From positions 1-64,000 of the forward strand of contig JADZFR010000050.1 of the NCBI GenBank assembly GCA_020849795.1: 64,000 nucleotides of DNA, given 5' to 3'. The stretch is from Planctomycetota bacterium. GTDB taxonomy: Bacteria > Planctomycetota > UBA8742 > UBA2392. Of the stretch, positions 9,727-32,363 are shown piece after piece; positions within the stretch are counted from its first letter, which is position 1, and every line of letters starts with the position of its first letter. The translations under genes were made by a program, and so were the position numbers. Under the pieces are notes generated by a model. The model saw nothing but the letters and a program-made list of their open reading frames with translations, was not told where the DNA came from and ran no database searches.

Positions 9727-9727
9727 G

Positions 9728-11509: not shown

Positions 11510-11515
11510 TCGTGA

Positions 11516-11521
11516 AGATTA
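11516..11521 (-). promoter_or_regulatory. -10 element of the TPR-cyclase gene (leaderless type)
   Basis: TAATCT on the minus strand is six bases (TCACGA) before the ATG at 11509. Confidence 0.4.
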
Positions 11522-12017
11522 GCACCGCACAGGCTGGAATGGCACTGCCTCGCCGCGTGGGCCAACATTCCGGTGGGCCCTCGGCGAAACCCAATGGCTC
11601 GCGCAGTCGTACTCTTGTGGCAACCAGGCTCACCTTGTCGGCAACGTAATGTCAGTGGCCTTTGCGTCCTCGACCTGAACGATCGCTTGCCAGTCTTCCC
11701 CCTCGATCACATACGGCACGCCACTCCCGTTCTCAAAACTCACGACGAAAAAGCGAACAGCCGGAAGATCGATTGCCCGGCATTGCACACTTGTCTTGCG
11801 GTCGGTGGCAACGGACCGCAATCGACCGATCGAGCGGTGGCCAAGCCTCAATCGTCGCATTCCCGATGCGCGATAAACTTCGCCCCCGCCCTCCAATCGG
11901 CAATGGCAAATGCGCAATACTGTTTCTGGCGCGTGCGGCGTGCTCTATCTTGACTTCCGTATCGTACGGCCCCCTGAACGCACGCCCGCCATAGACATCC
12001 ACCACCCGGAGTCTTCC
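11522..12017. other. Intergenic stretch with a hairpin and a doubtful small ORF
   Basis: About 500 bases between the cyclase and the first toroid gene. It contains a perfect 8-base inverted repeat (TTGCGGTC 11796-11803 with GACCGCAA 11814-11821, 10-base loop) next to the near-palindrome TCGACCGATCGA. The only candidate gene is the 95-codon minus-strand frame listed separately. The final 30 bases hold the ribosome site of the next gene. Nothing else is recognisable. Confidence 0.5.
11630..11917 (-). CDS. Possible small protein of unknown function
   Basis: A 95-codon frame. Its second half (LPAVRFFVVSFENGSG and VPYVIEGEDWQAIVQVEDA) looks like beta-strand protein sequence, but the first half is Arg- and Cys-rich and looks like random high-GC translation. 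No ribosome site or promoter decides a start. It may be the remnant of an older gene or a real short protein starting nearer residue 50. No family is recognised. Confidence 0.25.
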   Translation of the reverse strand: MRICHCRLEGGGEVYRASGMRRLRLGHRSIGRLRSVATDRKTSVQCRAIDLPAVRFFVVSFENGSGVPYVIEGEDWQAIVQVEDAKATDITLPTR

Positions 12018-12509
12018 ATGAACACCATGCTGCGATTCGTTCTGTGCCTGCTGCCCGTTGCCATGCTTGCGCCCGCGCCGGTCAGCCTTGCCAACGACAA
12101 AGACAGCGCACGGCCCCAACTAACGGAAGAGTCAGACCAGCCGCCCGTTCATCAATTCAGCGACGCAGAGCTCAGCGCAGCCCGCGAAACCCTGGCCGCC
12201 CTGACACCAGAACAACGCGCGCTGCTGAACCACATGCGCTATCTGCTGCAGCCACAGTATGAAGAAGAGCTGATGGCAGGCCGGGCCTTCGCCCCTTGCC
12301 CGCTGGCGCCGTTTGAGCAGCCCGGCGCTGTGCTGGAAAGCGCTGACGTGCTGCGCTTGTGGGCGGTGCTCGCATCAGGCATGCCGATTACGGACTCGAC
12401 CCGGGCATGGCTTCAATTGTTCGTGCAAACGCCCATACCCGCCGCCAGCGAGAGCATCAGCGAGATTGGCCTGCACATGGCTGTGCGCACACGGATTGCG
12501 GCGGGCTGA
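12018..12509 (+). CDS. Exported squalene-cyclase-like protein, N-terminal part (before a frame change)
   Basis: This 163-codon frame starts at ATG 12018 after a GGAG ribosome site. It opens with a signal peptide (NTMLRFVLCLLPVAMLAPAPVSLA), so the product is exported. A helical region follows (SAARETLAALTPEQRALLNHMRYLLQP and ADVLRLWAVLASGMPITDSTRAWLQLF). It stops at TGA 12507-12509. The next frame resumes at once with compatible helical sequence that has no signal peptide or ribosome site of its own. I therefore read the two as one gene split by a +1 frame change near 12490-12510. That could be a sequencing or assembly error, a real mutation, programmed frameshifting, or stop-restart at the TTG 12511. 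Confidence 0.65.
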   Translation: MNTMLRFVLCLLPVAMLAPAPVSLANDKDSARPQLTEESDQPPVHQFSDAELSAARETLAALTPEQRALLNHMRYLLQPQYEEELMAGRAFAPCPLAPFEQPGAVLESADVLRLWAVLASGMPITDSTRAWLQLFVQTPIPAASESISEIGLHMAVRTRIAAG

Positions 12510-12510
12510 G

Positions 12511-14544: not shown

Positions 14545-14572
14545 GACGCGCGGAACCGAGAGATTCTGAACA

Positions 14573-14601
14573 CCGGCGCCCGGCCAAATGCCGGGCGCTG
14601 G
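14573..14601 (+). terminator. Hairpin terminator after the first toroid gene
   Basis: A 12-base stem with one G-T pair (CCGGCGCCCGGC with GCCGGGCGCTGG) and loop CAAAT, followed by a short T-containing stretch (TCATTTCC). It lies 28 bases after the stop. Confidence 0.6.
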
Positions 14602-14737
14602 TCATTTCCGGGCGCCGTGCGCGTGCAGGTTCCTGTGTAAAGCCGCTGTAACAAATCCAGAACTCGGGAACCCACTTCGCCTGCCTGTCGTACTTAGGGG
14701 GTAGAGGTACGTCCCTGGCCCCCATACGAGAACGCCC

Positions 14738-16102
14738 ATGAAACCCAATTCACGATCCATGCTCCTGGTCGGCGCCGCGTTTGCCGGCGTCATGCTGTCC
14801 GCCTGTGTCAGCCGCACCCAGACGCCGCCGCCTGACGGCTGCAATGGCAAAGACACCACGGTCGAGAAGCCCGTTGAGAACAACGGCAACAGCACGTCCG
14901 GGGAGGGCACCCCGATCAGCCACAAACTGCCTGAACCTGGCCCGATTGATCCGTTCATGATCAAGGGCATCGACTATCTGGTCGCCGCGCAGCATGAAGA
15001 CGGCGGCTGGGGCGGCGGCTCACACGCGGCGCAGGATGTGCGCGACCCGCACGCGGTGAAGACTGACCCGGGCAGCACTTCATTCGCAGCCATGGCGTTG
15101 ATGCGCGCCGGCCACACACCGTTCTCGGGAAAACACAAGGCATCGGTGCTGAAGGCGACGACCTACGTGGTGGGAGCCGTCGAGGCATCCTCTGACAACG
15201 GCCCGCGCATCACCGACATTGAGGGCACGCAGTTGCAATCCAAGCTCGGCCAGATCATCGACACTGCGATGGCCTCTCAGTTCCTGGCACGCGTGCTGCC
15301 CCTGACAGAGCCAGACGCCGCGCTGCAGAAGCGCGTTGAGGCCGCGCTGGACAAGTGCATTCGCAAGATCGAAGCCTCACAGGGCGAAGACGGCGGCTGG
15401 ACCACACAGGGCTGGGCGCCGGTATTGCAGTCTTCGATGAGCAACCAGGCCCTTGAGTTGGCAGAAGTTGCCGGGCGCCCGGTCACGAACGCTGTGCTGG
15501 AGAAGTCGCGCGAGTACCAGCGCAAGGACATCAATGCTGACACCGGCGCAGTCGGGGGCGACAAGGGCCGCACATCGGCCGGGGTCGGTTTCTACGCAGG
15601 CGCCGCCACTCAGCGGGCCACGGCCAAAGACGCCGCCGAAGTCGACGCCAGAGTTGAACAGGCCAAGAAAGACGGCATCGTTGCCGCGGATGCTGACATC
15701 AACGAAGACACGCTGCAAAAGGCCGGCTACAGCGCCGACGAAGCCCAGAGCAAAGCAACCGCATACAAGCAGAACGGCACGCTGCTCAAGCGGCTCGATG
15801 ACGAGAACTATCTTTCCGGCTTCGGCAACAACGGCGGTGAAGAGTTCATCAGCTACATGCTGAGCAGTGAATCGATTGTGATCACCGGCGGCGAATCCTG
15901 GAGCAAGTGGAACGAGAAAATGCACACCATGTTCGAAAAGATCCAGAACGCCGACGGCAGTTGGAGCGGACACCACTGCATCACCAGCCCGGTGATCTGC
16001 ACCGCCGCCTCCATCCTGTGCCTGACGGCAGACCGTGACACGCACGTGCTGCTTGAAACCAGCGCGCTGGTACGGGCCAACAAGGGCAAAGGCGCCAAGT
16101 AA
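14738..16102 (+). CDS. Lipoprotein with squalene-cyclase-like repeats, paralog of the upstream protein
   Basis: A 454-residue predicted lipoprotein (hydrophobic LLVGAAFAGVMLSAC with lipobox Cys). A 50-residue polar linker leads into toroid repeats: AAQHEDGGWGGGSH, SQGEDGGWTTQGW and NADGSWSGHH. It matches the last two thirds of the preceding protein almost end to end. Shared blocks include DPGSTSFAAMALMRAGHTPF, the TQLQSKLGQIIDTA segment, GFGNNGGEEF and YMLSSESIVITG. This is therefore a tandem duplication in which one copy gained a lipoprotein anchor or the other gained extra N-terminal repeats. No catalytic DxDD is seen. A strong terminator follows. Confidence 0.8.
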   Translation: MKPNSRSMLLVGAAFAGVMLSACVSRTQTPPPDGCNGKDTTVEKPVENNGNSTSGEGTPISHKLPEPGPIDPFMIKGIDYLVAAQHEDGGWGGGSHAAQDVRDPHAVKTDPGSTSFAAMALMRAGHTPFSGKHKASVLKATTYVVGAVEASSDNGPRITDIEGTQLQSKLGQIIDTAMASQFLARVLPLTEPDAALQKRVEAALDKCIRKIEASQGEDGGWTTQGWAPVLQSSMSNQALELAEVAGRPVTNAVLEKSREYQRKDINADTGAVGGDKGRTSAGVGFYAGAATQRATAKDAAEVDARVEQAKKDGIVAADADINEDTLQKAGYSADEAQSKATAYKQNGTLLKRLDDENYLSGFGNNGGEEFISYMLSSESIVITGGESWSKWNEKMHTMFEKIQNADGSWSGHHCITSPVICTAASILCLTADRDTHVLLETSALVRANKGKGAK

Positions 16103-16117
16103 CTCGCAGCAAGACAG

Positions 16118-16146
16118 GCGGCCGGCAGGATAGACCTGTCGGCCGC
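16118..16146 (+). terminator. Rho-independent terminator after the second toroid gene
   Basis: A 12-base stem with one G-T pair (GCGGCCGGCAGG with CCTGTCGGCCGC), loop ATAGA, then TTTGCTTTGC. It ends ten bases before the -10 element of the next gene. Confidence 0.8.
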
Positions 16147-16156
16147 TTTGCTTTGC

Positions 16157-16162
16157 TAGAAT
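16157..16162 (+). promoter_or_regulatory. -10 element of the third toroid gene (leaderless type)
   Basis: TAGAAT lies six bases before the ATG at 16169, directly behind the upstream terminator. No ribosome site is present. Confidence 0.45.
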
Positions 16163-16168
16163 CCACAC

Positions 16169-17341
16169 ATGCGGCATACCCGGATCACTCTTGCACTGAT
16201 CACGCTTCTGGCCGCCGCTTCATGCGGCGGCGGCGACACCAACCCGCGCGACAATCCGGCAACTCCCCAGTCCACCCTGCAGCGCGCGTGCGCATGGCTT
16301 TGGAAGCAGCAGGCAGCAGATGGCGGCTGGCACAGCGAGACTTACGGCCTGATGCGCTCAGGACAGTCACTCACACCATTTGTGCTGCACGCGCTGCTTT
16401 CTGTACCCGAAGAGCAGGTGATCCGGCCTGACGGCGGCGTAGAGAAGGGACTTGCATTCATCCGCACGCACACCAACAGCGAGGGCTGCCTTGGAAGGTC
16501 GGACCGCGACATCGCGGACTACCCCAACCATTCCACAGCCTACGCCGTGCGATGCCTTGTCGCCGCGGGCAACAAAGCCGACGCCAAGTTGATTCGCCAG
16601 ATGTGCGATTACCTGCTCGCGCAGCAATTCAACGCCGCGAATGGGACCGACCCGCAATCCCATCGCTGGGGCGGCTGGGGGTTCGGCAGCGACGGCGGCG
16701 TCATGGACATCGGGCACACGCGCCACGTGCTTGAGGCATTGCACGATGCGGCTTCTCTCGATGCCGCGTGCGCCGAGCGTGCGCAATCATTCCTTCGGCT
16801 GCTCCAGCGCCATCCGGCTGAGTGGCGGGTTCAACCGGAAGTGCCCGGAGAAGCGCCCGGTGACGCGGGCAGCACCTATGACGGCGGCTTCTACTTCTCG
16901 CCGACCGACACAGCCATGAACAAGGGCAGGCACCAGCCCGCGGCGGGCGGTCGCGCAGCCTGGTACCGCAGCTACGCCACAGCCACTTGCGACGGGCTGC
17001 TGTCATTGCTTGCTGCGGGTGTCTCTGAAACCGACGAGCGGGTGAAGGCGGCCGCAAGCTGGCTGGACAAACATCCCGCGATCGATCATCCGGCCGGAAT
17101 TCCGCAAGACGATCCAACGCCTTGGTACGTGGCGGTTCATTACTACCACGTCGCTGTGCGTGCCGAGGCTTGGCGGGCACTCGGGCGGAAAGGCGACTGG
17201 AAGACTCAAATCGAGCGGCACCTGGCAGCTTCACAGCGCGCGAACGGCAGCTTTGTCAATGAAAACAGCCCGCTGATGAAAGAGAATGATCCCGTGCTGT
17301 GTACTGCGCTGGCGGTGGTGGCGTTGGCCCATTGCGCATGA
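16169..17341 (+). CDS. Lipoprotein with squalene-cyclase/prenyltransferase-like repeats
   Basis: A 390-residue predicted lipoprotein (RHTRITLALITLLAAASC). The mature part is made of toroid helix pairs with QW-like motifs: KQQAADGGWHSETYG, HRWGGWGFGSDGG, a GSTYDGGFYFSP block, and SQRANGSFVNENSP. It is more distant from the two upstream proteins than they are from each other. This class of exported repeat protein is common in planctomycetes and usually lacks an assigned reaction. Three such genes in a row suggest a shared surface or periplasmic role. The start ATG lies six bases after TAGAAT. The gene is convergent with the FHA gene, with 15 bases between the stops. Confidence 0.8.
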   Translation: MRHTRITLALITLLAAASCGGGDTNPRDNPATPQSTLQRACAWLWKQQAADGGWHSETYGLMRSGQSLTPFVLHALLSVPEEQVIRPDGGVEKGLAFIRTHTNSEGCLGRSDRDIADYPNHSTAYAVRCLVAAGNKADAKLIRQMCDYLLAQQFNAANGTDPQSHRWGGWGFGSDGGVMDIGHTRHVLEALHDAASLDAACAERAQSFLRLLQRHPAEWRVQPEVPGEAPGDAGSTYDGGFYFSPTDTAMNKGRHQPAAGGRAAWYRSYATATCDGLLSLLAAGVSETDERVKAAASWLDKHPAIDHPAGIPQDDPTPWYVAVHYYHVAVRAEAWRALGRKGDWKTQIERHLAASQRANGSFVNENSPLMKENDPVLCTALAVVALAHCA

Positions 17342-17356: not shown

Positions 17357-17998
17357 TTACTTCTGCGAGTGGATCGCTTCCTGCTGCTGGTAGTACCAAA
17401 CGCCGATCGCGCCGATCGCAACCAACAGCATCAACAACGCGACGACCATCGTGACCAGGTTGGCCCGCCGCTTCTCAGAGCGGGCTTCAAGCCGGTCGGC
17501 TACCTCTTTGATCATGCGCTTGGTCTTGTCGCCCGCGCCAAGCTCGTTGCCGACGGTTTCGACCAGGCGCGTCATGGACTGCGGCTTGCCCGCCGGTGGC
17601 TTCATCGATGATGGCGCCGGCAGCTGTGAGGATGCGGGCGGGTTTTCGCCGGGGATAATCAGGCGCAGAACCGCGCCCTCTTGCCCCAGGCTGACCTCGC
17701 TGCCGTCCCACACCTGCGTGCCTTCGGCCGAGCAGCGGCTGCCGTTGACCCACAAGCCGTTGCTGGAGCCCTGGTCGCGGACGAAGATCCCGTCGCGGGT
17801 CTCAACGACAAGCGCATGGTGGCCCGAGACCTTGAGGTCTCGGTTGGCATCAAAGCGCAGGTTGCAGTCAGGCGCGCGACCGAACATGAGGCCGCGCCGC
17901 AGGTCTTTGACTGCAAAGGCAAATCGCCGCCCGGCCAGCGAGCTGGTTTGCACTTCGACAATCAGTCGCGGTTGTGCGGTGTCAGAAGCATCACCCAT
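17357..17998 (-). CDS. FHA-domain protein with C-terminal membrane anchor
   Basis: A 213-residue protein. Residues about 15-110 form an FHA domain with the usual phosphothreonine-binding signature: MFGRAPDCNLRF, then SGHHALV, then SSNGLWVNG. A Pro/Ser linker and a charged helical segment follow, and a single membrane helix (VTMVVALLMLLVAIGAIGVWYY) ends the protein. The domain therefore faces the cytosol and could recruit phosphorylated partners to the membrane. No protein kinase is encoded in the window. TAGAGT six bases before the ATG suggests a leaderless message. Confidence 0.88.
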   Translation of the reverse strand: MGDASDTAQPRLIVEVQTSSLAGRRFAFAVKDLRRGLMFGRAPDCNLRFDANRDLKVSGHHALVVETRDGIFVRDQGSSNGLWVNGSRCSAEGTQVWDGSEVSLGQEGAVLRLIIPGENPPASSQLPAPSSMKPPAGKPQSMTRLVETVGNELGAGDKTKRMIKEVADRLEARSEKRRANLVTMVVALLMLLVAIGAIGVWYYQQQEAIHSQK

Positions 17999-18004
17999 GC
18001 CGGG

Positions 18005-18010
18005 ACTCTA
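18005..18010 (-). promoter_or_regulatory. -10 element of the FHA gene (leaderless type)
   Basis: TAGAGT on the minus strand is six bases (CCCGGC) before the ATG at 17998. Confidence 0.4.
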
Positions 18011-18069
18011 CTGCAAAGGACTGGGGTATGGGAAGAAGCCGCCTGCTGCCCAGACTGGCAGTCGGCAAA

Positions 18070-18942
18070 CTACAAGCCGCGGGCCCATTCGGGGCGCAGC
18101 GGAATCTTGCCTGACAGGGCACCGTCCAGCACCTCGACGATGCGCTTTCGGTCGCGCGGCAGACGGCCTTCCAGGGGCAAGTAGTTGCTGGCGTGGTTGC
18201 TTCTGAAAATCGCGTCGTGGGGTGCTGCCAAGTCCACGAACGTGCGCATCTCGCCCAGCAAGCCGCGAATATCCGGCAGCGTGAAGCGCCCGCTTTCCTC
18301 AAGTTTCGCCAGCGGCGTGCCGGGCACCACCGTCAGTGTCAGGCACGACACAAAGCGCGGGTTCATCTCGGTGGCAAGACGCGCGCTGGCATGCGCGTGT
18401 TCGCGGCTTCGCTCTGTGCCGCCCGCGCCCAGCAGAAAGATCGCGCTCAGCTTGATGTCGGCGGCGTGGGCCTTGTGGGCGGCGCTGACGTGTTCGTCAA
18501 ATGTCGCGCCCTTGGCAATGCGCTTGAGGGTCGCGTCGTCGCCCGACTCGGGCCCTATGTACAGCAGGCTCAGCCCCCATTGCCGCAACTGCTGCAACTC
18601 GGCAGCGGTCTTCTCGTTCAGGTTGCGCGCGGTGGCATACGCGCTGATGCGGCGAAGGCGCGGGAACGTCTGGCGCAGGCTTTGCAGCACTGGCTGCCAC
18701 TGGTCCAGGTTCATGGCCAGCGCGTCACCGTCGGCAACGAAGACTTTGTCAACCTCGTCGCCATAGGCCGCGCCCGCCAGCGTGATGTCTTCGAGCGTTT
18801 GGGCAAGCTCGCGCACCCGAAACTGCTTGTCGCGGTACATGTCGCAGTAGGTGCAATGGTTCCACGAGCAGCCGATGGTCGCCTGCAAAATGTAACTGTT
18901 ACCTTCGCTGGGTGGCCTGAACACGCGGCCTTCGTAGCGCAT
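18070..18942 (-). CDS. Radical SAM protein of unknown substrate
   Basis: A 290-residue protein. The cluster motif is CSWNHCTYCDMY (CxxxCxxC), preceded by SYILQATIG. It has the GD/ALAMN and ISAYATARNL strands of the SAM barrel, then LYIGPESGDDATLKRIAKG, which is also seen in Elp3-like and YgiQ-like radical SAM proteins. The start ATG at 18942 gives MRYEGRVFRPPSEGNS, the likely natural N terminus; a longer in-frame version is less plausible. The gene is divergent from the ClpB-like operon, with 136 bases between the starts. The substrate cannot be deduced, and the tail has no extra cluster motif. Confidence 0.82.
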   Translation of the reverse strand: MRYEGRVFRPPSEGNSYILQATIGCSWNHCTYCDMYRDKQFRVRELAQTLEDITLAGAAYGDEVDKVFVADGDALAMNLDQWQPVLQSLRQTFPRLRRISAYATARNLNEKTAAELQQLRQWGLSLLYIGPESGDDATLKRIAKGATFDEHVSAAHKAHAADIKLSAIFLLGAGGTERSREHAHASARLATEMNPRFVSCLTLTVVPGTPLAKLEESGRFTLPDIRGLLGEMRTFVDLAAPHDAIFRSNHASNYLPLEGRLPRDRKRIVEVLDGALSGKIPLRPEWARGL

Positions 18943-19031
18943 GGCCCTGTGTTGCCATGAACGCGGCGCGGCGTGAAGGGGTGGGCCATGCACAAGCGGC
19001 TTGCAGGCTCTTCCAACTGGCTGGATTCCCG

Positions 19032-19078: not shown

Positions 19079-22000
19079 GTGGCGAACCTGCCGTTCCAAC
19101 TTCACGCGCTGGTGCAGCGCCTTGAGAACGACCAATACATTGGCGAAGCGCTGTTCGTGCCCGAGATTTCGCGCTTTGGCCAATCGGCGTTGCGGGTCAG
19201 GCGAGCCTTGGCAGGCAACGCGCGCCGCGTACTTGAGCGGGATGCCCCGGGCGAACTCTACCGCCGCGCATCTGCGGGTGCGCCGGAGGTTCGCGAGTTC
19301 ACTGTCGAGTTGCCGCCCGCCCGCGAGCTCACGCTGTGGCGGGGGCCACTGACCCTCACCTTTCATGCCGCGTGCTGGTCTCACGGCACCACCGAGCTGG
19401 CGTTTCTGCCGGCCTTGGGCATTGAGGTCATTGCCGACAATCGCACTGAGCTTGAGGCCCGCGTGCCGCGCGAGATTCTGCTGCACATCCAGCGCACGCA
19501 CCTGAATGAATCCTGGGGCCGCCTGCTTCTCGTGCAGCGCTGTCTTGAGCTGCAGACGTTTCCGCTGCCCCTTGAGCCCGAGATCCAGTCACCCAAGGAA
19601 CGCGAAGTGCAGTCTGCCCAAGGCAGCCCGAAGAGTTCCGTGCTGCGCGAGATCGGCATTGAGCTTGCCAGTGCACGCCTTGACCCGGCCTTTGAACGTG
19701 ACGAAGACGTGCGCCGCCTCGCGGGTGCGCTGGCCGAGCCCGCGCCGGAAAGCGTTCTGCTGGTCGGCCCCAGCGGCGTTGGCAAGACAGCCGTGTTTCA
19801 CGAACTGGTGCGCCGCCGCGCCGAGCTGCACTTTCCGGTCACGCCGTTCTGGGCGACCAGCGGCTCGCGCCTGGTGGCGGGCATGAGCGGCTTCGGCATG
19901 TGGCAGCAGCGCTGCGATGACCTGCGGCGCGAAGCCGCCCGCACCCGTGCGATCATCCACCTCGGAAACCTGGTCGAGCTGATGGAAGTCGGCAAGGGCA
20001 TGATGATCCAGCAGGGCGTGGCCGGTTTTCTGCGCCCATTTATCGCACGCGGCGAGCTGCAATGCGTCGTGGAGTGCACGCCTGAGCAGTTGCCGCATAT
20101 TGAGCGCCGCGATCCCCACCTGCTGGGGGCATTCAAGCGCATAGTGATTGATGAGCCGACACCGCAGGCCGCGCTGTCCATCCTGCTCTCTGTGGCGCAC
20201 GAGTTGTCGCCCGACGGCCGCGACCAGATATCGATGGAATCCTTGGAGACGCTCGACCGGCTGCACCGGCGCTATGCCACCTATAGCGCCTACCCGGGTC
20301 GACCGCTGCGGTTCTTGAAGAACCTGCTGACCGACCGCGCCGCAGATGCCCATACCCCCACCGACGAAGCCGCAGTGTATGAGGCATTCTCTCGCGAAAC
20401 GGGCATGCCGCGCGTGTTGCTGGATACCGCCATCGCTCTTGAACCGACGCAGACGCAGCGCTTTTTTGCAGAGCGGGTGATGGGCCAGGACGGCGCACTG
20501 GCGCTCGTGACCGACCTGCTGGCGACGATCAAGGCCGGCATGGCGCGCCCGCGCCGGCCCCTGGCAAGCTACCTGTTTGCAGGCCCCACCGGCGTCGGAA
20601 AAACCGAAACCGCCAAGGCGCTCGCGGAGTACATGTTCCATGACCCGCGCCGCATCACCCGCTTTGACATGAGCGAGTACGCGAGCGCGGGCGCCGTTGC
20701 ACGCCTGATCGGCGGTGACTTTGGCGAAGAAGGGCTGCTGACCGCGCGCCTTCGCGAACAGCCGTTCTGCGTGCTGCTGTTCGATGAATTCGAGAAGGCG
20801 CACCCGGCGTTCTTTGACCTGCTGTTGCAGGTGCTGGGCGAGGCGCGCCTGACCGACGCAGCGGGACGGCTGGCGGATTTCCGCAACGCAGTAGTAATCA
20901 TGACCAGTAACCTGGGTGCGGAGAGCTTCATGCAGGGCGGCTTGGGCTTTGCACCAGGCAACGTGGATGCCCGCGAGCATTTTACACGCGCACTGGAAAA
21001 GTTCGTGCGCCCCGAGTTGATCAACCGCATCGACCGCGTCGTTCCGTTCCTGCCGTTGCCGCCTGAGGTTGTGCTGCGCATTGTCGGGCGTGAACTGGAA
21101 CAGATCCGGCGGCGCCCCGGTTTGCTGGCCACCGGCACTGCATTGAGCGTTGATGGCGCCGTGGCCGCACACATCGCGCAGGTCGCGTACCAGCCCGCGA
21201 TGGGTGCTCGCCCCCTGAAGCGCGAAGTCGCGCGCAGCCTGCTGGCACCGCTTGCAGAAGCCTTAAACACGCAAAGCACTGTCTACGCGCTTGATACCCA
21301 TGCCGTCATGGACGGCGCCGTGCGCGTGCTGGCCAAGCCGCTGGACGAAGGCGACGGCCCGCGGGCTCGCCGCAGCCACGATCATGCGCTGGGGGCGCTT
21401 GCCAGCGAGGTCGGGGCGCTGCGACGCAAGGCCCAGAAGGCGAACAAGTCGCCCGCACTGCTGGCTGTGCGCAATGCGATACTCCGGCTTGAGCGCGCGC
21501 TTGATCTTGAGGCGCGGCGTATGCGCAAGAAGGACTACAAGCCGGCGGCCGACAAGAGTCTCTCGGAACTTCCGGGTCTGCAGGCGATTGACCAGGCGTT
21601 TGCCGAAGCGCTGGAGCAGCTGAACACTCTTGAGGACCGCCTGTTGCTTGGCGCATTCGGCCGCGAGCCCAGCGACGAAGCAGCGCTTCGCGCGCGTGCC
21701 AGAGAAGTTGCCACACTGTGGGAGGCGGCACTGCGGGCACTGATGCGTCTGGGCCTGCGCACAGCCGATGCGGCGACGATGTGGGTGTACTCGCACAACA
21801 ACGACCTGATGTTCGACCTTGCCCGCGCGTACTTGGCGTGGGCGCAGGGCAGCGACATCAAGTGCGTCGCATACTGGGCTGCAAAGGCACACACAGAGCA
21901 GGACTTCAGCGATCTGCGCAACCGCGAACAACACAACGAGGTCGCGCGTGACTGCCTGCTGCGAGAGCTGAAGCGCAACCGCGAGACTCTGCCATCGTTA

Positions 22001-22387
22001 TACGCGCCCCGCGACTCCGAAACGTTCCTGGCCGAGCCGCGCGAAGACCGGGGTGCGATTGTGCTTTCATTTTCGGGGCCCGACGTGCTGTTGTCGCTGC
22101 GTGGCGAGCAGGGTCTGCATCGCTTTCGCCACGACGCCGAAAGTGAGCCCGTCAACGTGGATGTGCGAGTGTTCAGCGAAGACCCATTCCAGGCCGAGTT
22201 GCCGCTGCCGCGCGGCGCGACCGAGGAAGGCGACGTGCGCCGCCGCTATGAACTTGCGCAACGCCAGGCCCACGACACGGTGCTTGACATCATCGCGCCC
22301 TGGACTGGCCGCGCGCTTGAGCTTGCGCTTGGGCGGTGCATGGACGCCACGTTTCTGCGCGCGCTGGAAAGGCAGGTGGGACTGTGA
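19079..22387 (+). CDS. ClpB-like double AAA+ ATPase 1, degenerate D1, PCRF-like C terminus
   Basis: A 1102-residue protein with a GTG start. Residues 1-200 show no Clp-N repeats. D1 has Walker A GPSGVGKT (230-237), but the Walker B position reads AIIHLGNL (291-298) without Asp-Glu, so D1 probably binds but does not hydrolyse ATP. The D1 pore position is GMSGFGMW (268-275). D2 has Walker A GPTGVGKT (502-509), Walker B VLLFDEFEKAH (from 565), the box VII Arg region RPELINRID and sensor 2 GARPLKR. After DMSEY (530-534) the loop is short (LIGGDFGEEG) and lacks GYVG. There is no coiled-coil M domain and no ClpP-binding loop. Residues about 770-1102 are extra; about 895-1060 resemble a release-factor PCRF domain. 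It overlaps the next gene by 4 bases. Confidence 0.85.
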   Translation: MANLPFQLHALVQRLENDQYIGEALFVPEISRFGQSALRVRRALAGNARRVLERDAPGELYRRASAGAPEVREFTVELPPARELTLWRGPLTLTFHAACWSHGTTELAFLPALGIEVIADNRTELEARVPREILLHIQRTHLNESWGRLLLVQRCLELQTFPLPLEPEIQSPKEREVQSAQGSPKSSVLREIGIELASARLDPAFERDEDVRRLAGALAEPAPESVLLVGPSGVGKTAVFHELVRRRAELHFPVTPFWATSGSRLVAGMSGFGMWQQRCDDLRREAARTRAIIHLGNLVELMEVGKGMMIQQGVAGFLRPFIARGELQCVVECTPEQLPHIERRDPHLLGAFKRIVIDEPTPQAALSILLSVAHELSPDGRDQISMESLETLDRLHRRYATYSAYPGRPLRFLKNLLTDRAADAHTPTDEAAVYEAFSRETGMPRVLLDTAIALEPTQTQRFFAERVMGQDGALALVTDLLATIKAGMARPRRPLASYLFAGPTGVGKTETAKALAEYMFHDPRRITRFDMSEYASAGAVARLIGGDFGEEGLLTARLREQPFCVLLFDEFEKAHPAFFDLLLQVLGEARLTDAAGRLADFRNAVVIMTSNLGAESFMQGGLGFAPGNVDAREHFTRALEKFVRPELINRIDRVVPFLPLPPEVVLRIVGRELEQIRRRPGLLATGTALSVDGAVAAHIAQVAYQPAMGARPLKREVARSLLAPLAEALNTQSTVYALDTHAVMDGAVRVLAKPLDEGDGPRARRSHDHALGALASEVGALRRKAQKANKSPALLAVRNAILRLERALDLEARRMRKKDYKPAADKSLSELPGLQAIDQAFAEALEQLNTLEDRLLLGAFGREPSDEAALRARAREVATLWEAALRALMRLGLRTADAATMWVYSHNNDLMFDLARAYLAWAQGSDIKCVAYWAAKAHTEQDFSDLRNREQHNEVARDCLLRELKRNRETLPSLYAPRDSETFLAEPREDRGAIVLSFSGPDVLLSLRGEQGLHRFRHDAESEPVNVDVRVFSEDPFQAELPLPRGATEEGDVRRRYELAQRQAHDTVLDIIAPWTGRALELALGRCMDATFLRALERQVGL

Positions 22388-25300
22388 AGTTCAACCTGCC
22401 GGTGTATTGCGAGAAGCAATCAGGTGAAAAGGGCGACGTCTTTTACGTGCGCACCCTGTTCGCGACCGAGATGGAAGCGTCGCGCCCCGAGCTGAAGCGC
22501 GCCACGGACTCGCTGACCTCGGTCGTTCAGAAAAGTCTGAGGCGCTGCGTCTCCGAGGCCCGCCACGAAGACGTCGCGAACCTTGCATTCTCGCCAGAGT
22601 TGCAGGAGCAAGCCGTCACGGTGCATCTTGAACTGCGCCGCCGCACCTTCGACGTGCGGTTCCTGTTCGCCATCTTTGAGGCACGAGGCCGCCGCATTGC
22701 ATACACGCCGCGTTTGCCTGCGCTGGCCTTCGAGCTTGGCCGCAAGGAAGACCTGGCAAGCCGCGCCGCCGAGGTGTTCACGGCGTACTACCGCAAGCTT
22801 GAGCGCGAGGACAAACCGTTCGACGCCGCAAACGACGGCATCAAGGGCAGCGCCTGGTTAAGCACGCTGGACTTCAATCTGGATGTCGACGCCAGCTGGA
22901 ACCCCGCCCCCGAAGAACGTCGCGCCGAGATTGGCGGGTTCGCCAACATGAACGGCGCAGCCGAGCTGCAGCGCGTGGGGCGCCTGGTGAATGCGCTGTA
23001 CCCTGACGATCTGGGCCGCGCGATCCGGCGCGACGACGAGGTCAGTGAGCTTGCGCGCCTGCTGGGCGAGAAGGCCTCGCGCCCGGTGCTGGTGCGCGGC
23101 CGGTCCGGTGTGGGCAAGACCGCCGTGATCCACGAGACCGTGCGCCGCATGATTGAAGCGCGCGGCAAGGGCAGCGAGCGCAACCAGGTGTGGCTGGTTT
23201 CACCGCAGCGGCTGATCTCGGGCATGATGTTCGTGGGTCAATGGGAGAACCGGCTTCACGCGATTCTCGCAGAGTGCCGCCGACGCAGCCATGTGCTCTA
23301 CTTTGACGACCTCGTCGGCCTGTTTCGCGCCGGCCTGTCCGCCAACAGCAAGGTCAGCGTCGCCGCAGTGTTGAAGCCGCACCTTGAACGCCGGGAAGTA
23401 AAGGTACTGGCCGAGTGCACGCCCGAAGCATTCCGAGTGCTGACCGAGCTTGACCGCAGCTTTGCTGACCTGTTTCACGTGCTACCGCTGGAGCAACCCA
23501 ACGAAGCGGAAACGTTGCGCATCCTGATTCACCAGCAGCGCGAGCTTGAGTCGCGCCTTGAATGCCGTTTTGACCTGGAAGCACTGCCGACGGCCCTTGA
23601 CCTCTCCACCCGCTACCGGCGCGAACAGGCGTTTCCCGGCAAGGCGGCGGGCTTTCTGTCGCAGCTTGCGGTCAAGCATCGCAAAGAGCCGGTCACGCGC
23701 CGCGACGTGCTGGCAGAGTTCCAGGCCCGCAGCGGCCTTTCAGTGACGTTTCTTGACGAACACGCTCGCCTTTCTCGCGACGACATTCGGCAAGGCCTGC
23801 GCACGCGCATTGTCGGCCAGGACGGCGCCATCGAGTCCCTGTGCGACGTCGTCAGCATTGCCAAGGCGCGCCTGAACGACCCCGATAAGCCGCTGGGCAG
23901 CCTGCTGTTTCTCGGCCCAACTGGCGTGGGCAAGACCGAGTGTGCCAAGGCACTGGCCGAGTTCTTGTACGGCAGCGCTGACCGTCTGCTGCGCTTTGAC
24001 ATGAACGAGTATCCCGAGGCACACAGCGTCTCACGCCTTGCCGGCACGATCAGCGAACCGGAAGGCCTGCTGACCGGTGCCGTGAGACGCAACCCATTTT
24101 CGGTCATCCTGCTGGACGAAATCGAAAAGGCCCACCCCGCGGCATTTGACCTGCTGTTACAGGTGCTCGGCGAAGGTCGCCTGACCGACGCGCTGGGCCG
24201 AACCGCAGACTTCAGTAACTGTATCGTTGTGCTCACGAGCAACCTGGGTGCACGCGAAGCCGAAGGCGGCATGGGGTTGGCGGGCCACGACAGCCGCGGC
24301 GATGACGCCTATGTGCAGGCTGCGCGTCGCTTTTTCCGGCCTGAGTTTTTCAACCGGCTTGACCACATCGTGCCGTTCTCGCGCCTCAGCCGCGAACAGG
24401 TCGGCGAGATCTCGCGCCACCTGTTGCACGACGTTCTTGCACGCGAGGGATTGCAGCGCCGGCGCTGCATTTTACAGGTTGACCCGCTGGCGATGGAGCG
24501 TGTGGTGGACCGCGGCTTTCACCCCACGCTGGGCGCCCGCGCGATCCGGCGCGAGATTGAACGACAACTGACGCTGCCGCTGGCTGCGCGCCTGGCTGAG
24601 TTGACGCCGGATGTGCCCGTGCTGGTCTCGCTGATGGCGCGTGGCGACGAGATCGCCGTCGCGACTTCGCCGCTGCATGCGGACGCATATGCCGGAAACG
24701 CCGCCGCGCGCCTGGCGGACCTGCCACCCGACGACGCCATTGCAGTGATCGACAAGCTGTTAAACGCCGCCGAGACGCAACTGGAAGCGCAGAAGCCGCA
24801 AGGCGCAATTTCGGGAGGCGACGTAAACCCAGCCTTGCAGCGCTACTACGCGATCAAAGGGCAGGTTGAGGCAATCGACCGCGCTGTCGAGAGTTATCTG
24901 GACTGGCGCGAGCGTGGCAGCGGGCGCCCACAGCCGCAACAGGAATTCGTGCCGGTCGACGCGGCCGCGTGGCTTGAGTTGCACACACCCGCCGACGCAC
25001 GCGCTCTGCTGGCCGGTGCCCCCGAGGTGCCCGGACTGGAAGGGCACGCGCGAATGCTGCGACTGGCTGCCGCCGCCGCCTTGTTGACGATGATGCTCAA
25101 GACCGAGGCCCGCGACGACGAACGCGCGCTGCTGCTGGTGGACGCAATGGGCGGCGTCTCGTCGCGCGGCGCATTGCTGGGATCATTGATGGCAATGCTG
25201 CGTATGCGCTTTGAGCTTGGCGCAGATTTCACGGTGCCGGAGGGCAGCGACGAGGTCGTTGTCTCGGGCTATCTCGCACAACCGCTGACGCACGCCTTGG

Positions 25301-25617
25301 CCGGCACCTACCTGCACGTAAGCGACCAGGGGCTGACCCCACTGCGGGTGCTGGCCGCGGATGTGCCTAAGGGCGACGATGCAAAACTGCATGCGGCACG
25401 GCTGCAGTCTGAGCGCCGGGCGTGGGCACAGGCCGTGGCGCGGGGCGAGGCCGCGCCGGATCACGACCCTGTGCCCGCGCGCCCCGTGCGGCAGGTGTTG
25501 GTCGCAAACGGCCCGACGCTTGATGTTCGCGGCGGCATGCTTTCTCGTGAGCGGCCAACGCTGGCGCTCCTGGCGCAATGGCTGCTGTGCGGATTGCCGC
25601 TGGGGGAGGCGCCATGA
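22384..25617 (+). CDS. ClpB-like double AAA+ ATPase 2, PCRF-like C terminus
   Basis: A 1077-residue protein. The GTG at 22384 overlaps the previous stop (GTGA), which sets the start; a longer in-frame ATG lies inside gene 1. The N-terminal 200 residues are of the same unknown type as in the neighbours. D1 has Walker A GRSGVGKT (239-246), pore position GMMFVGQW (280-287) and Walker B VLYFDDL (304-310), where Asp replaces the catalytic Glu. D2 has Walker A GPTGVGKT (511-518), Walker B VILLDEIEKAH (from 574), RPEFFNRLD and GARAIRR. The loop after DMNEY (539-543) is LAGTISEPEG, again without GYVG. The extra C terminus (about 800-1077) has a PCRF-like pattern (LLLVDAMGGVSSRGALLG, then GYLAQPL...AGTYLH). 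Its stop overlaps the next start by 4 bases. Confidence 0.85.
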   Translation: MKFNLPVYCEKQSGEKGDVFYVRTLFATEMEASRPELKRATDSLTSVVQKSLRRCVSEARHEDVANLAFSPELQEQAVTVHLELRRRTFDVRFLFAIFEARGRRIAYTPRLPALAFELGRKEDLASRAAEVFTAYYRKLEREDKPFDAANDGIKGSAWLSTLDFNLDVDASWNPAPEERRAEIGGFANMNGAAELQRVGRLVNALYPDDLGRAIRRDDEVSELARLLGEKASRPVLVRGRSGVGKTAVIHETVRRMIEARGKGSERNQVWLVSPQRLISGMMFVGQWENRLHAILAECRRRSHVLYFDDLVGLFRAGLSANSKVSVAAVLKPHLERREVKVLAECTPEAFRVLTELDRSFADLFHVLPLEQPNEAETLRILIHQQRELESRLECRFDLEALPTALDLSTRYRREQAFPGKAAGFLSQLAVKHRKEPVTRRDVLAEFQARSGLSVTFLDEHARLSRDDIRQGLRTRIVGQDGAIESLCDVVSIAKARLNDPDKPLGSLLFLGPTGVGKTECAKALAEFLYGSADRLLRFDMNEYPEAHSVSRLAGTISEPEGLLTGAVRRNPFSVILLDEIEKAHPAAFDLLLQVLGEGRLTDALGRTADFSNCIVVLTSNLGAREAEGGMGLAGHDSRGDDAYVQAARRFFRPEFFNRLDHIVPFSRLSREQVGEISRHLLHDVLAREGLQRRRCILQVDPLAMERVVDRGFHPTLGARAIRREIERQLTLPLAARLAELTPDVPVLVSLMARGDEIAVATSPLHADAYAGNAAARLADLPPDDAIAVIDKLLNAAETQLEAQKPQGAISGGDVNPALQRYYAIKGQVEAIDRAVESYLDWRERGSGRPQPQQEFVPVDAAAWLELHTPADARALLAGAPEVPGLEGHARMLRLAAAAALLTMMLKTEARDDERALLLVDAMGGVSSRGALLGSLMAMLRMRFELGADFTVPEGSDEVVVSGYLAQPLTHALAGTYLHVSDQGLTPLRVLAADVPKGDDAKLHAARLQSERRAWAQAVARGEAAPDHDPVPARPVRQVLVANGPTLDVRGGMLSRERPTLALLAQWLLCGLPLGEAP

Positions 25618-27863
25618 GCGTGTCGCGCATCCCTGTTCTGTTGTGGCGCGACCTTTCGGGCCTGTGGACCGGCGCGGTGGTCGAGTCGCCACACCTGGCA
25701 GCCATCGACCGAAACCCGCAGGGCTGCCTGGACCAGTTGCGCGCGCACCTGCACTGGCTGCAACGCAACCAGCCGTGGAACGTGCCGGAGCCCGAGATCC
25801 TGGAGGGCAGCCTGCTGCGTGTGCAAGTCAGCGTGCGGCCCGAAGTCGTGGCCAAGCAGCGCCGCATGCCTGCCGAATACGAGGTACGCATCGTTGTTCC
25901 GTGCATCTACGGCCGCACGGCCAGCGGCATGTTCGCCTGCTCGATCCCCACAATCGGCGTGTGGTTCATGTATCACGATGCCGAGCAGTTGCGCGAAATG
26001 GCCAGCCACTATGTGCGCGATGCGCTGCGCGGATTGAGCGCGCAGCGTCTGAGCCGGCACCTGCCACCAGCAGAGTTCGAACTGGAACAGGTGCTATTGA
26101 ACGACCCGGGCGAACGCCGAAGACAGGCCAAACCTGCGCTGCCCGCCCTGGAAGCCGTTGCAGAGCCGATTGGCGAGCGCAGCGTGCGCAAGCAGTTTCC
26201 GCGGCCATACGAGCGCGACACCGAAATCAGCGACCTGGTCACGCGCGTGCATACCGACCGCGCGTCGGTACTGCTGGTCGGCGAGCCCGGCAGCGGCAAG
26301 ACTTCGGTGCTGGTCGCCGCAAGCCGCGAGATCGAACGCAAGCGCGAGTCCGGCGATGACCGCCGGCTGTTCTGGCAGACCTCGGGCTCAAGGCTGATCG
26401 CCGGCACTCCATACCTGGGGCAATGGGAGGAGCGCCTGGAGGAAGCGCTTGAGCAACTGGCGGCCATTGACGGCGTGCTTTGTGTAGAAAACCTGCTTGA
26501 GCTTGTGCGCATGGGTGGCTACGACGCCGGCGACAGCGTGGGCGCTTTCCTTGTGCCGTACCTGCGCATGGGTGAGTTGCGTATGATCGCCGAAGCCACT
26601 CCGGCCGAGCTTGATGCCTGCCGGCGCCTGCTGCCGCCACTGGCCGAGGCCATGCAAGTGCTGCCGGTGGCGCCGATGCCCCACGCCAGCGCGCTGCGCG
26701 TGCTGGACAGGCTGGCCGCCAGCGCCGAGCGCAACCAGCGACTTACGATAGGCGGCGAGGCCGTGTCGGCCGTCGGGCAACTGTTCCGGCGTTTCCGGCC
26801 GTATGATTCCATGCCGGGTAAAGCGGCGCAGTTCCTGACTTCGCTGGCGCAGGCAGCGGCAAACACCCAGGGCCGGACAGTTAACTCTTCCACTGTGATG
26901 GAACAGTTCCGATCCGACACCGGCCTGCCCGAGAAATTCTTGCGTGATGAGTTGCCGCTGCAGCGCTCCGAGGTGCTGACCTTTCTTTCCGCGCGCGTGA
27001 TGGGCCAGGCAGCCGCCTGCGAAAGCGCCGCTGGCGTAATCCTGGCGTTCAAAGCCGGGTTGAATGACCCGCACCGTCCGTTGGGCGCCATGCTGTTCGC
27101 CGGCCCGACCGGTGTCGGCAAAACGGAACTGGCACGCGCCATGGCCGACTACCTGTTCGGGGCGGGGGCCGAGAAAGACCGCTTGGTACGCCTGGACATG
27201 AGCGAGTACGCGGGCGCAAGCGGCGCCGAGCGCTTGATCAGCGACAGCAACGGCGAGCCCAGCGAGTTCCTGCGCAAGGTGCGCTCGCAGCCATTCTGCG
27301 TCGTGTTGCTGGACGAAATCGAGAAAGCCGACGTCGGCGTGTTCGATGTGCTGCTTGGACTGCTGGATGAAGGCCGCTTGACGGACCGTTATGGCCGCGT
27401 CACCAGCTTCCAGAGTTGCGTGATCGTGCTGACCAGCAACCTGGGCTCAGGCAGCGGCGGTGCACTGGGTTTTGGCGCGCAACGCGGACCCGACTTTGAT
27501 GGGGCGGTGGCGCGCTTCTTTCGCCCGGAGTTTTACAACCGGCTTGACGCAGTGGTGGCATTCAAGGCGCTGGACGAAGCAACGGTGCGCCGCATCGCCG
27601 ACAAGGAACTGGCCGAGCTTGCGGCGCGCGAGGGCATCGTTGCCATGGGCATCAAATTGGAATGGACACCGGAAGTTGCGACGCTGGTTGCACAGGCCGG
27701 GTTCGACCACCGCTATGGCGCCCGGCCTTTGCAGCGCGCGCTGGATGAGCTTGTCGCGACACCACTGGCCAGGCTGCTTGCCGCAGACCCTGCACTGCGC
27801 AACTGCACGCTTATGGCCACAGCACAGGACGGCAAAGTCCAGTTTGCGCACCAGCGTGCCTAG
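25614..27863 (+). CDS. ClpB-like double AAA+ ATPase 3
   Basis: A 749-residue protein whose ATG overlaps the previous stop (ATGA). The N-terminal 200 residues again lack Clp-N repeats and follow the shared strand-helix pattern of the neighbours. D1 has Walker A GEPGSGKT (223-230), pore position GTPYLGQW (264-271, keeping the aromatic Tyr) and Walker B VLCVENL (288-294), so the Asp-Glu pair is lost. D2 has Walker A GPTGVGKT (497-504), Walker B VVLLDEIEKAD (from 563), RPEFYNRLD and GARPLQR. The loop after DMSEY (528-532) is LISDSNGEPS, with no GYVG. It ends just after the D2 small domain and has no PCRF-like tail. It is convergent with the DUF192 gene, with five bases between the stops. Confidence 0.86.
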   Translation: MSVSRIPVLLWRDLSGLWTGAVVESPHLAAIDRNPQGCLDQLRAHLHWLQRNQPWNVPEPEILEGSLLRVQVSVRPEVVAKQRRMPAEYEVRIVVPCIYGRTASGMFACSIPTIGVWFMYHDAEQLREMASHYVRDALRGLSAQRLSRHLPPAEFELEQVLLNDPGERRRQAKPALPALEAVAEPIGERSVRKQFPRPYERDTEISDLVTRVHTDRASVLLVGEPGSGKTSVLVAASREIERKRESGDDRRLFWQTSGSRLIAGTPYLGQWEERLEEALEQLAAIDGVLCVENLLELVRMGGYDAGDSVGAFLVPYLRMGELRMIAEATPAELDACRRLLPPLAEAMQVLPVAPMPHASALRVLDRLAASAERNQRLTIGGEAVSAVGQLFRRFRPYDSMPGKAAQFLTSLAQAAANTQGRTVNSSTVMEQFRSDTGLPEKFLRDELPLQRSEVLTFLSARVMGQAAACESAAGVILAFKAGLNDPHRPLGAMLFAGPTGVGKTELARAMADYLFGAGAEKDRLVRLDMSEYAGASGAERLISDSNGEPSEFLRKVRSQPFCVVLLDEIEKADVGVFDVLLGLLDEGRLTDRYGRVTSFQSCVIVLTSNLGSGSGGALGFGAQRGPDFDGAVARFFRPEFYNRLDAVVAFKALDEATVRRIADKELAELAAREGIVAMGIKLEWTPEVATLVAQAGFDHRYGARPLQRALDELVATPLARLLAADPALRNCTLMATAQDGKVQFAHQRA

Positions 27864-27868
27864 GCCAC

Positions 27869-29614
27869 TTACTTTGCCTCAGTCAGCGCAGCGGGAATAA
27901 AGATGCGGTCGCCCTCGGCAATGCCGTTGTCTTTGTACCAGTTCTCGCGCATTTCCACGGCAAAGCGCACGGGTGCCCCGGCTGGATACAGTTCAAGCTC
28001 GTGGTCAGGCGTGCCCGCGGCGGGCGCCTTCATCACGTTGTGAATCTTGACAATCACCCCGCGCTCGTCGGCAAACGCGATGCTGAGGTTCATTTTGCAG
28101 TTCTTCATCCAGTAGCTGACGTCGCTTTCCTCGGCGGGATAGATGAACAGCATGCCGTGATTTTCTTTCAGGCTCTCGCGGAACATCAAGCCGCGGCGCT
28201 GCTCGGCTGGCGTAATTGCCAGCTCAACGCGGGCGCGGCCCTTGAGGTTGTTGTCTTTGCCCGGCCAGCGGTCGGTGACCACGTCCTTCTGCTTGGCGTT
28301 GTAGAACACCACCGCGGGAAGGCTGGGCGGTAGGTCCTGCAAGAGATAAGGAAACTTCAACTCGCCCTTGGGTGCAAAGCCGGCGGGCACCGCAATCACA
28401 AAGCGCGTCTGCGCCTTGAAGTCTACTTTGCCACCCTTGGCTGCTTCCTTATGCACGATGCTGTAGCCGCCATCGCCCTTGCCGACAAACCACAGGTTCG
28501 CGCCGGCTGGCGCGTCAATCGTGACGTGGCTGGGGTCGTCCCATGCAAGCACGATCGCCTTGCCGGTCTCAATGGTGTTGGATTTCTTGAGTGCAGCCAA
28601 TCGGGCGTCTTCAGTCATGGCCAGGCTGGCTTCAAGCCGGTCGTCACCGAACTTGATGTCGATCTTGTCGTAGCTCGGCGCCTGGTTGTCGTATGCATCC
28701 ACGCCCGCAATCGTAACGGCGCTGCGGCGCTCAATCTTGTTTTTCGTGAAGTAGTCGCTGCCCTTCCAGATCGCGAGATAGCTTGCCTTGGTCGGGCTGA
28801 AGTACACGGGCTCGTCGAGGTCGCTGCCGCCAGCCGCCTCAATGCCCTCATACAACGCGCTGATGATCTTGGTACGACCCGCCGTCTCAATCCATGCGGC
28901 GCAGACCTTGCCCTTGACGCCCTTGAGCCAGAACTGCCCCTGCTTGCCGCCGAACGGGACGATCACGCCCTGCCCTTCAGTGAGTTCGTCGCGATCCTTC
29001 ATGAGCTGCGCGACTTCTTCGGCCTTTTCAAGCACTTTCAGGCTGACACTCGGCGCGTCAGTCGGTTTGTCCTCGGGGCGTTCGTTGCGGATGAAGAACA
29101 TCTTGGCGAGTTCAGGTTCGGCACCCTTGCTCTTGTCCAGCAGGTCGGGCGAAGTCTTGACCGCGGTGCCCGCCGCGATGCCCAGCTCTTTTGCGGCGCC
29201 CGCAGGCAGTTGCAGCACGACGCGCGCTTTCTTGCCGCCATAGATGCGGGGGAAGGCAGCTTCATTGAATGCGGGCACATTGGCGACCAGCACCGCGTTG
29301 CCGTCTGCGCCGACGAACACGAGGTCCAACGGGTCGGGCACGGTCTTGAACTCGATTTCGACGGGCTCTTTCAGTTCGGGGTACAACATTGCGATCGCCT
29401 GGCCGGCTTTGACTGCCAAGCCGTTAATGGCGCGGCGGCGGTGCATTTCACTCGTCGCGACGAAGGCTTTGAACTCTTTGCCGTTGATCGTCAGCGCCTC
29501 GGTGGACTCCATGTACGGCCACGCCACGGGCTCGACGACTTCTGAGTCGGGGCCGCATGCGGCAAGCAACAGGCTGATGGCGGCCAATGTGAAAAGGCAA
29601 AGTCGCGTACGCAT
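27869..29614 (-). CDS. Lipoprotein with repeated DUF192-like domains
   Basis: A 581-residue predicted lipoprotein; the ATG at 29614 follows GGAGAC and opens a signal peptide with lipobox (LAAISLLLAAC). A DUF192-like unit is visible near the N terminus (ALTINGKEFKAFVATS, then DPLDLVFVGADGNAV). A clear unit lies at the C terminus (RARVELAITPAEQRRGLMFR, GMLFIYP, VSYWMKNCKMNLSIAFADERG). The middle (about 350-460) has a weaker third copy (LEASLAMTEDARLAALKKS then WFVGKGDGG). DUF192 proteins are small, mostly single-domain exported proteins of unknown biochemical role. A three-unit arrangement is unusual. The stop lies five bases from that of the ClpB-like operon on the other strand. Confidence 0.78.
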   Translation of the reverse strand: MRTRLCLFTLAAISLLLAACGPDSEVVEPVAWPYMESTEALTINGKEFKAFVATSEMHRRRAINGLAVKAGQAIAMLYPELKEPVEIEFKTVPDPLDLVFVGADGNAVLVANVPAFNEAAFPRIYGGKKARVVLQLPAGAAKELGIAAGTAVKTSPDLLDKSKGAEPELAKMFFIRNERPEDKPTDAPSVSLKVLEKAEEVAQLMKDRDELTEGQGVIVPFGGKQGQFWLKGVKGKVCAAWIETAGRTKIISALYEGIEAAGGSDLDEPVYFSPTKASYLAIWKGSDYFTKNKIERRSAVTIAGVDAYDNQAPSYDKIDIKFGDDRLEASLAMTEDARLAALKKSNTIETGKAIVLAWDDPSHVTIDAPAGANLWFVGKGDGGYSIVHKEAAKGGKVDFKAQTRFVIAVPAGFAPKGELKFPYLLQDLPPSLPAVVFYNAKQKDVVTDRWPGKDNNLKGRARVELAITPAEQRRGLMFRESLKENHGMLFIYPAEESDVSYWMKNCKMNLSIAFADERGVIVKIHNVMKAPAAGTPDHELELYPAGAPVRFAVEMRENWYKDNGIAEGDRIFIPAALTEAK

Positions 29615-29723
29615 CAAAGTCTCCAAAGTCGCACCACCCCGGGCAACCGGGGCGGGGTGGGCAGGATAGGGCGACCCGACCCCCGGGGCAAGTAGCGGGC
29701 GTTGCCACAGACCGCTGCTGCCA

Positions 29724-32363
<2,640 letters not shown>

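Follow-up and report, generated by a model that had tools for sequence, protein, structure and literature searches.

Few bacterial protein families have been studied as closely as release factors and Clp unfoldases. In the class-I release factor RF2, domain 1 (d1) contacts the L11 stalk, domains 2 and 4 form the codon-recognition superdomain (d2/d4), and domain 3 carries the GGQ motif (PMC5378476, PMC6881298). The d2/d4 superdomain is positioned at the decoding centre (PMC5378476), and the SPF tripeptide is dispensable when RF2 acts in dependence on ArfA or BrfA (PMC5378476, PMC6881298). A review of release-factor evolution mentions neither Clp nor PCRF (PMC6514570), and no description of a Clp motor joined to a release factor was found in the open PMC subset.

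The locus described here lies in the window, i.e., the whole 64,000-nucleotide stretch of DNA that was analysed, and belongs to a 3.97-Mb planctomycete genome with three further Clp-type loci. The operon is predicted to encode a three-component ring ATPase of Clp/Hsp100-like type.

Organization of the three-gene operon

The first-pass annotation had read three open reading frames joined by four-base overlaps (GTGA and ATGA), and their positions, lengths and overlaps are all borne out by ORF calls and direct reading (Table 1). The gene 2 product is laid out as N-domain, D1, D2 and C-terminal tail. A scan for promoters and terminators gave nothing exceeding shuffled sequences. In Pfam, AAA_2 and ClpB_D2-small lie well above cut-off in all three proteins, which in the broad sense (two AAA+ domains, ClpB_D2-small and complete D2 catalytic motifs) are of Clp/Hsp100 class I. 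Their nearest NCBIfam families are ClpB and ClpA, matched at 261-354 bits where the cut-offs are 993-1232, and therefore none of them belongs to a named Clp equivalog; for the ClpB equivalog the scores are 282-354 bits against 1232, and the curated ClpA and ClpC cut-offs are likewise not reached.

Table 1. Features of the three-gene operon (positions in the window) and of single-gene Clp-RF2 fusions (positions in their own loci)
Feature	Position	Strand	Description or basis
Gene 1	19079..22387	+	1102 aa; N-domain, D1, D2, RF2-like tail; ORF call
Gene 1 N-domain	19079..19672	+	hhalign
Gene 1 D1 pore loop, AGMSGFGMWQQR	19877..19912	+	motif survey
Gene 1 degenerate D1 Walker B, AIIHLGNLVEL	19949..19981	+	motif survey
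Gene 1 D2 pore-loop region without GYVG	20663..20767	+	motif survey
Gene 1 LGF tripeptide, ClpP-loop position	20942..20950	+	orthologue comparison
Gene 1 RF2-like tail, residues 735-1102	21281..22384	+	PCRF, hhalign, AlphaFold, PDB matches
EQGLHRF, release-factor signature E-x-G-x-H	22106..22126	+	37/37 orthologues
GTGA overlap, gene 1 stop / gene 2 start	22384..22387	+	read directly
Gene 2	22384..25617	+	1077 aa from GTG at 22384; ORF call
Gene 2 N-domain	22384..23019	+	AlphaFold model
Gene 2 D1 pore loop, SGMMFVGQWENR	23218..23253	+	[YF]VG in 33/35
Gene 2 D2 pore-loop region without GYVG	23995..24099	+	motif survey
Gene 2 C-terminal tail	24607..25614	+	hhalign
ATGA overlap, gene 2 stop / gene 3 start	25614..25617	+	read directly
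Gene 3	25614..27863	+	749 aa from ATG at 25614; N-domain, D1, D2, no tail
Gene 3 N-domain	25614..26201	+	hhalign
Gene 3 D1 pore loop, AGTPYLGQWEER	26400..26435	+	[YF]LG in 31/31
Gene 3 D2 pore-loop region without GYVG	27192..27296	+	motif survey
Gene 3 LGF tripeptide, ClpP-loop position	27465..27473	+	orthologue comparison
Clp-RF2 fusion, Myxococcota	L159:6284-9103	+	PCRF search
Clp-RF2 fusion, Myxococcota	L160:8261-11077	-	PCRF search
Clp-RF2 fusion, Myxococcota	L161:7142-9961	+	PCRF search
Clp-RF2 fusion, Planctomycetota	L162:9503-13057	-	PCRF search
Clp-RF2 fusion, Planctomycetota	L163:6554-10732	+	PCRF search
Clp-RF2 fusion, Planctomycetota	L049:10288-14124	-	PCRF search

All three proteins begin with a common N-domain that is absent from the first-pass annotation. 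The domains are homologous by hhalign (gene 1 with gene 2, 97.6%; gene 1 with gene 3, 96.4%) and match no Pfam family; in particular there is no Clp-N match, in keeping with the original reading that Clp-N repeats are missing. The AlphaFold model of the gene 2 N-domain consists of two beta-beta-beta-alpha units (mean pLDDT 86.4, about 95 over residues 1-160), and Foldseek returned no PDB match to it at E<=1e-3. The best leads, HicB (prob 0.95, under 60 residues) and PUR-alpha repeats, are non-significant and are not claimed as its fold.

Motor domains

The motif survey covered 37 orthologues of gene 1, 35 of gene 2 and 31 of gene 3. In D2, Walker A (GPTGVGKT), Walker B (DE), sensor 1 (TSN), the arginine finger (RPE..NR) and sensor 2 (GAR..[KQR]R) are near-invariant in all three sets, and the GYVG pore loop was found in none of the listed orthologues of any trio gene. 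Two features first reported for the window, a D2 with intact Walker A, Walker B, arginine finger and sensor 2 and the missing GYVG loop, thereby extend across the orthologues. In gene 1 the D2 loop reads RLIGGDFGEEGLLTARLREQPF, five residues fewer than in the same genome's canonical protein; of the three further Clp-type loci of this genome, the one on contig 3 encodes a 901-aa protein with a normal GYVG loop.

D1 keeps its Walker A and has lost the acidic pair of Walker B, the position reading LG in gene 1, DD in gene 2 and variably in gene 3. The first-pass description of this site as degenerate is right overall, except that gene 2 (hhhDD) is less degenerate than genes 1 and 3. The RRF arginine-finger pair, known from D1 of ClpB, is present in D1 of none of the trio proteins among the 37, 35 and 31 orthologues. 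The D1 pore loop retains an aromatic residue, in the form aromatic-x-G in gene 2 ([YF]VG, 33 of 35) and gene 3 ([YF]LG, all 31) and mostly as [FYW]G among the 37 orthologues of gene 1, and a polypeptide could therefore still be threaded. The proposal that the machine is not a standard unfoldase is supported for D2, which has no GYVG, and less so for D1, with its aromatic loop. The lack of an M domain, also proposed at first, is seen in profile alignments: the ClpA profile, which has no M domain, aligns in one stretch and the ClpB profile in two.

A ClpP loop had been declared absent as well. This is not supported, for most orthologues of genes 1 and 3 have a [VLMI]GF tripeptide at the equivalent site, between sensor 1 and the arginine finger. 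The same position is occupied by [VLM]GF in the single-gene Clp-RF2 fusions described below and by IGF, its ClpP loop, in the ClpA-like protein L173; the ClpB-like protein of the window's own genome has no such tripeptide there. The aromatic D1 loop of the trio, and the tripeptide of most gene 1 and gene 3 proteins and of the fusions, are what a divergent yet ordinary Clp disaggregase or unfoldase might display, one that would thread substrates by its D1 loops, possibly hand them to ClpP through [VLM]GF and use the gene 1 tail as an adaptor-binding domain. Such a role is judged unlikely, given that GYVG is missing from D2 of all members, that D1 cannot hydrolyse normally with its Walker B and arginine fingers lost, and that the 370-residue C-terminal tail would occupy the ClpP-facing side, which makes ClpP binding by gene 1 doubtful.

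A release-factor fold at the C-terminus of gene 1

Beyond its motor domains gene 1 encodes a 370-residue tail, overlooked in the first-pass annotation, whose predicted fold is that of a class-I release factor of the RF2-like type; its presence alters the probable target of the machine. The window's own tail matches nothing significant in Pfam. PCRF matches 18 of the 37 orthologous gene 1 tails (best E 2.6e-8), and one orthologue, L094, a genuine trio gene 1, is alone in passing the curated Pfam cut-off for PCRF (24.6 against 24 bits). When the gene 1 tail was aligned by hhalign with a set of 36 release factors drawn from the same phyla, the probability was 87.7% (E=3.4e-6); the three N-domains, run as controls against release factors, gave 0.1%. 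The AlphaFold model of the window's tail has a pLDDT of 90.3, and its Foldseek matches in the PDB at E<=1e-3 are RF1 or RF2 in 27 of 27 cases; the top match is the pre-accommodated state of RF2 with ArfA.

The tail comprises the helical d1 and the d2/d4 superdomain, with the GGQ domain missing. The release-factor signature E-x-G-x-H is found in every orthologue, its E, G and H accounting for three of the five invariant columns of the tail. GGQ occurs in 0 of 37 gene 1 tails, and neither SPF nor PxT is seen in them at the equivalent place after G-x-H-R; the combination of GGQ with SPF/PxT that marks a functional class-I release factor is lacking. In view of the known RF2 contacts, the tail therefore keeps those parts that in RF2 touch the ribosome outside the catalytic centre, without the catalytic part itself. 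Tail identity between the two phyla is about 20%, and the motors are better conserved; contacts with the ribosome may therefore have drifted. A stretch resembling the C-terminal domain of ribosomal protein L7/L12 was noted in the gene 1 tails of two members (in L097:2853-6455, minus strand, at residues 1034-1063; E=4e-5, below the Pfam cut-off), and was dismissed as a general tail feature.

A release-factor-like fold that keeps both d1 and d2/d4 might also serve as a mimic that binds RF3, PrmC or ArfA-like factors, so that the ring would dismantle termination complexes. PrmC modifies the glutamine of GGQ, a motif present in 0 of 37 tails, and no termination gene is linked to the trio; a mimic of this kind is accordingly considered improbable.

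The gene 2 tail and single-gene Clp-RF2 fusions

The C-terminal tail of gene 2 gives no direct release-factor match by hhalign. Against the tail of gene 1 it reaches P=72% (E=3.5e-5) and against the fusions P=26%, and it is probably a further eroded, release-factor-like relative.

A PCRF search of Planctomycetota and Myxococcota uncovered Clp ATPases in which a C-terminal RF2 domain is encoded within a single gene (Table 1). These fusions likewise lack GYVG. The NCBIfam prfB profile matches L159 at E=5.2e-24 and L162 at E=6.9e-25, the latter over prfB positions 20-348, and since the fusions score better with prfB than with prfA the donor would have been RF2-like. Alignment by eye shows GGR in L162 at the GGQ position of release factors. 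The gene 1 tail aligns with the fusions by hhalign at P=97% (E=7.5e-11). HEAT repeats were seen near the N-terminus of the L162 fusion (9503-13057, minus strand; residues 111-190), and Pyxidicoccus fallax carries both the trio and a Clp-RF2 fusion.

In a tree of D2 domains the gene 2 proteins form one clade (98/91) and five fusions another (100/99); the branching of genes 1 and 3 is unresolved, and no order of duplication is claimed. One planctomycete gene 2 (L036:8308-11879, plus strand) is split into two ORFs by a frameshift, real or of the assembly, which accounts for its long branch in the tree. Probably a Clp ATPase captured an RF2 domain and then underwent triplication and erosion of the tail, the direction and rooting of this series being inferred.

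Conservation and genomic neighbourhood

Planctomycetota and Myxococcota were the phyla sampled in depth, and only the best 5 or 10 candidates were scored per genome, so that genome counts are lower bounds. When GTDB species genomes were scanned with a gene 2 pattern, two planctomycetes of the same genus came up together with P. fallax, which has all three trio genes head to tail. With the gene 1 tail as marker, a search of 392 genomes gave matches in at least 15 of the 16 genomes sampled from the family to which the window belongs, in one distant planctomycete (G081) and, marginally (E about 1e-3), in two more. In the family member without a tail match (G047, a genome 88% complete), a gene 2 search gave only canonical-looking Clp proteins. 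Among Myxococcota at least 41 of 195 genomes have the gene 1 tail, and 21 of these loci were read.

Genes 1, 2 and 3 are adjacent or overlapping in the same order at 31 of the 37 loci read, from two phyla and including the locus with the split gene 2; the remaining six gene 1 loci are interrupted by contig ends. At most planctomycete loci each gene overlaps the preceding one, and in Myxococcota the genes lie a few bases apart. The shared order in two phyla rules out a lineage-specific oddity. This search of genome collections lends good support to the coupled set of three paralogues proposed from the window, and the kept order fits a machine of fixed stoichiometry, possibly a heteromeric one.

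Genes flanking the trio are not conserved between lineages. An upstream radical SAM gene and a SpoIIE-TPR protein are found in planctomycete loci only, and a laminin-G protein and a TPR-containing Ser/Thr kinase in some Myxococcota loci only; as they differ between lineages, they are taken as ordinary synteny and not as operon partners. Several planctomycete loci encode, near the trio, a fusion of SpoIIE-type phosphatase, AAA domain and TPRs (L010:3366-6626, minus strand). In the window itself three consecutive squalene-hopene-cyclase-like repeat proteins, two with lipoprotein-like N-termini, occupy 12457-17341 (plus strand); an FHA-domain protein, whose C-terminus carries a hydrophobic segment, lies with a radical SAM protein at 17357-18993 (minus strand), divergent from the trio; and a large putative lipoprotein with two DUF192-matching stretches is at 27869-29764 (minus strand). 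An anti-phage defence system was also considered and rejected, in that PADLOC aligns only the AAA+ stretches of PDC-M37B, DolB and mad8.

Proposed function

The explanation that best accommodates these features, held tentatively and with somewhat less than even confidence, is a mixed, D2-powered ring that a dead RF2 domain docks on ribosomes while D1 loops grip the substrate. The three proteins would form the ring, ATP hydrolysis by D2 would power it, and the motor would remodel either a translation complex or the nascent chain in it, with no termination of translation. Docking by the tail, which is suggested by its fold, is proposed in view of the RF2 contacts given above, d1 with the L11 stalk and d2/d4 at the decoding centre. 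Against a ribosome-docked ring, the neighbouring genes contain no pointer to translation, the gene 2 tail is uncertain and gene 3 has none. A more specific form, in which the dead RF2 body brings a heteromeric AAA+ ring to the ribosomal A site, would amount to a new type of ribosome quality-control machine, using ATP to extract or dismantle stalled, idle or hibernating translation complexes with no hydrolysis of peptidyl-tRNA; this is offered as a rather speculative possibility.

The main rival holds that the fold taken over from RF2 now serves as a scaffold or adaptor-binding platform with no role at the ribosome, the ring remodelling some other assembly and its three subunits providing asymmetry. 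Loss of both the decoding tripeptide and GGQ would agree with this, as would a tail that diverges faster than the motors, is eroded in gene 2 and has disappeared from gene 3. Yet within the tail the release-factor signature E-x-G-x-H alone is near-invariant, and d1 plus d2/d4 are retained as a unit; scaffolding is thus regarded as possible rather than probable.

The ribosome-docked ring is a prediction that can be put to the test in culturable myxobacteria, the trio being present in many Myxococcota as well as in a planctomycete family. The natural series that runs from near-complete RF2 fusions to tail-less subunits bears on the role of a release factor body without its catalytic domain, and the trio is also material for asking what a Clp D2 ring does without a pore loop.

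Comparison with known systems

With ClpA, ClpB and ClpC the trio shares the D1 and D2 AAA+ architecture, the D2-small domain and the D2 catalytic motifs. It differs from them in having no D2 GYVG, Clp-N or M domain, in its degenerate D1 site, and in the possession of a new N-domain, an RF2-like tail and three coupled paralogues. The gene 1 tail resembles RF2 (prfB) in predicted fold, in d1 and d2/d4 and in E-x-G-x-H; unlike RF2 it has neither the GGQ domain nor SPF/PxT, and it is fused to an ATPase. The single-gene Clp-RF2 fusions also place an RF2-like C-terminus after Clp D1 and D2 and have a shortened D2 loop, but each is one gene, with a tail much closer to RF2 and without the shared N-domain. 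To the ArfA-RF2 and BrfA-RF2 rescue systems the likeness is that of a release-factor-type body working on ribosomes with no need for SPF recognition (PMC5378476, PMC6881298). Those systems require an active GGQ, whereas the trio would have no hydrolase and an ATP motor attached in its place.
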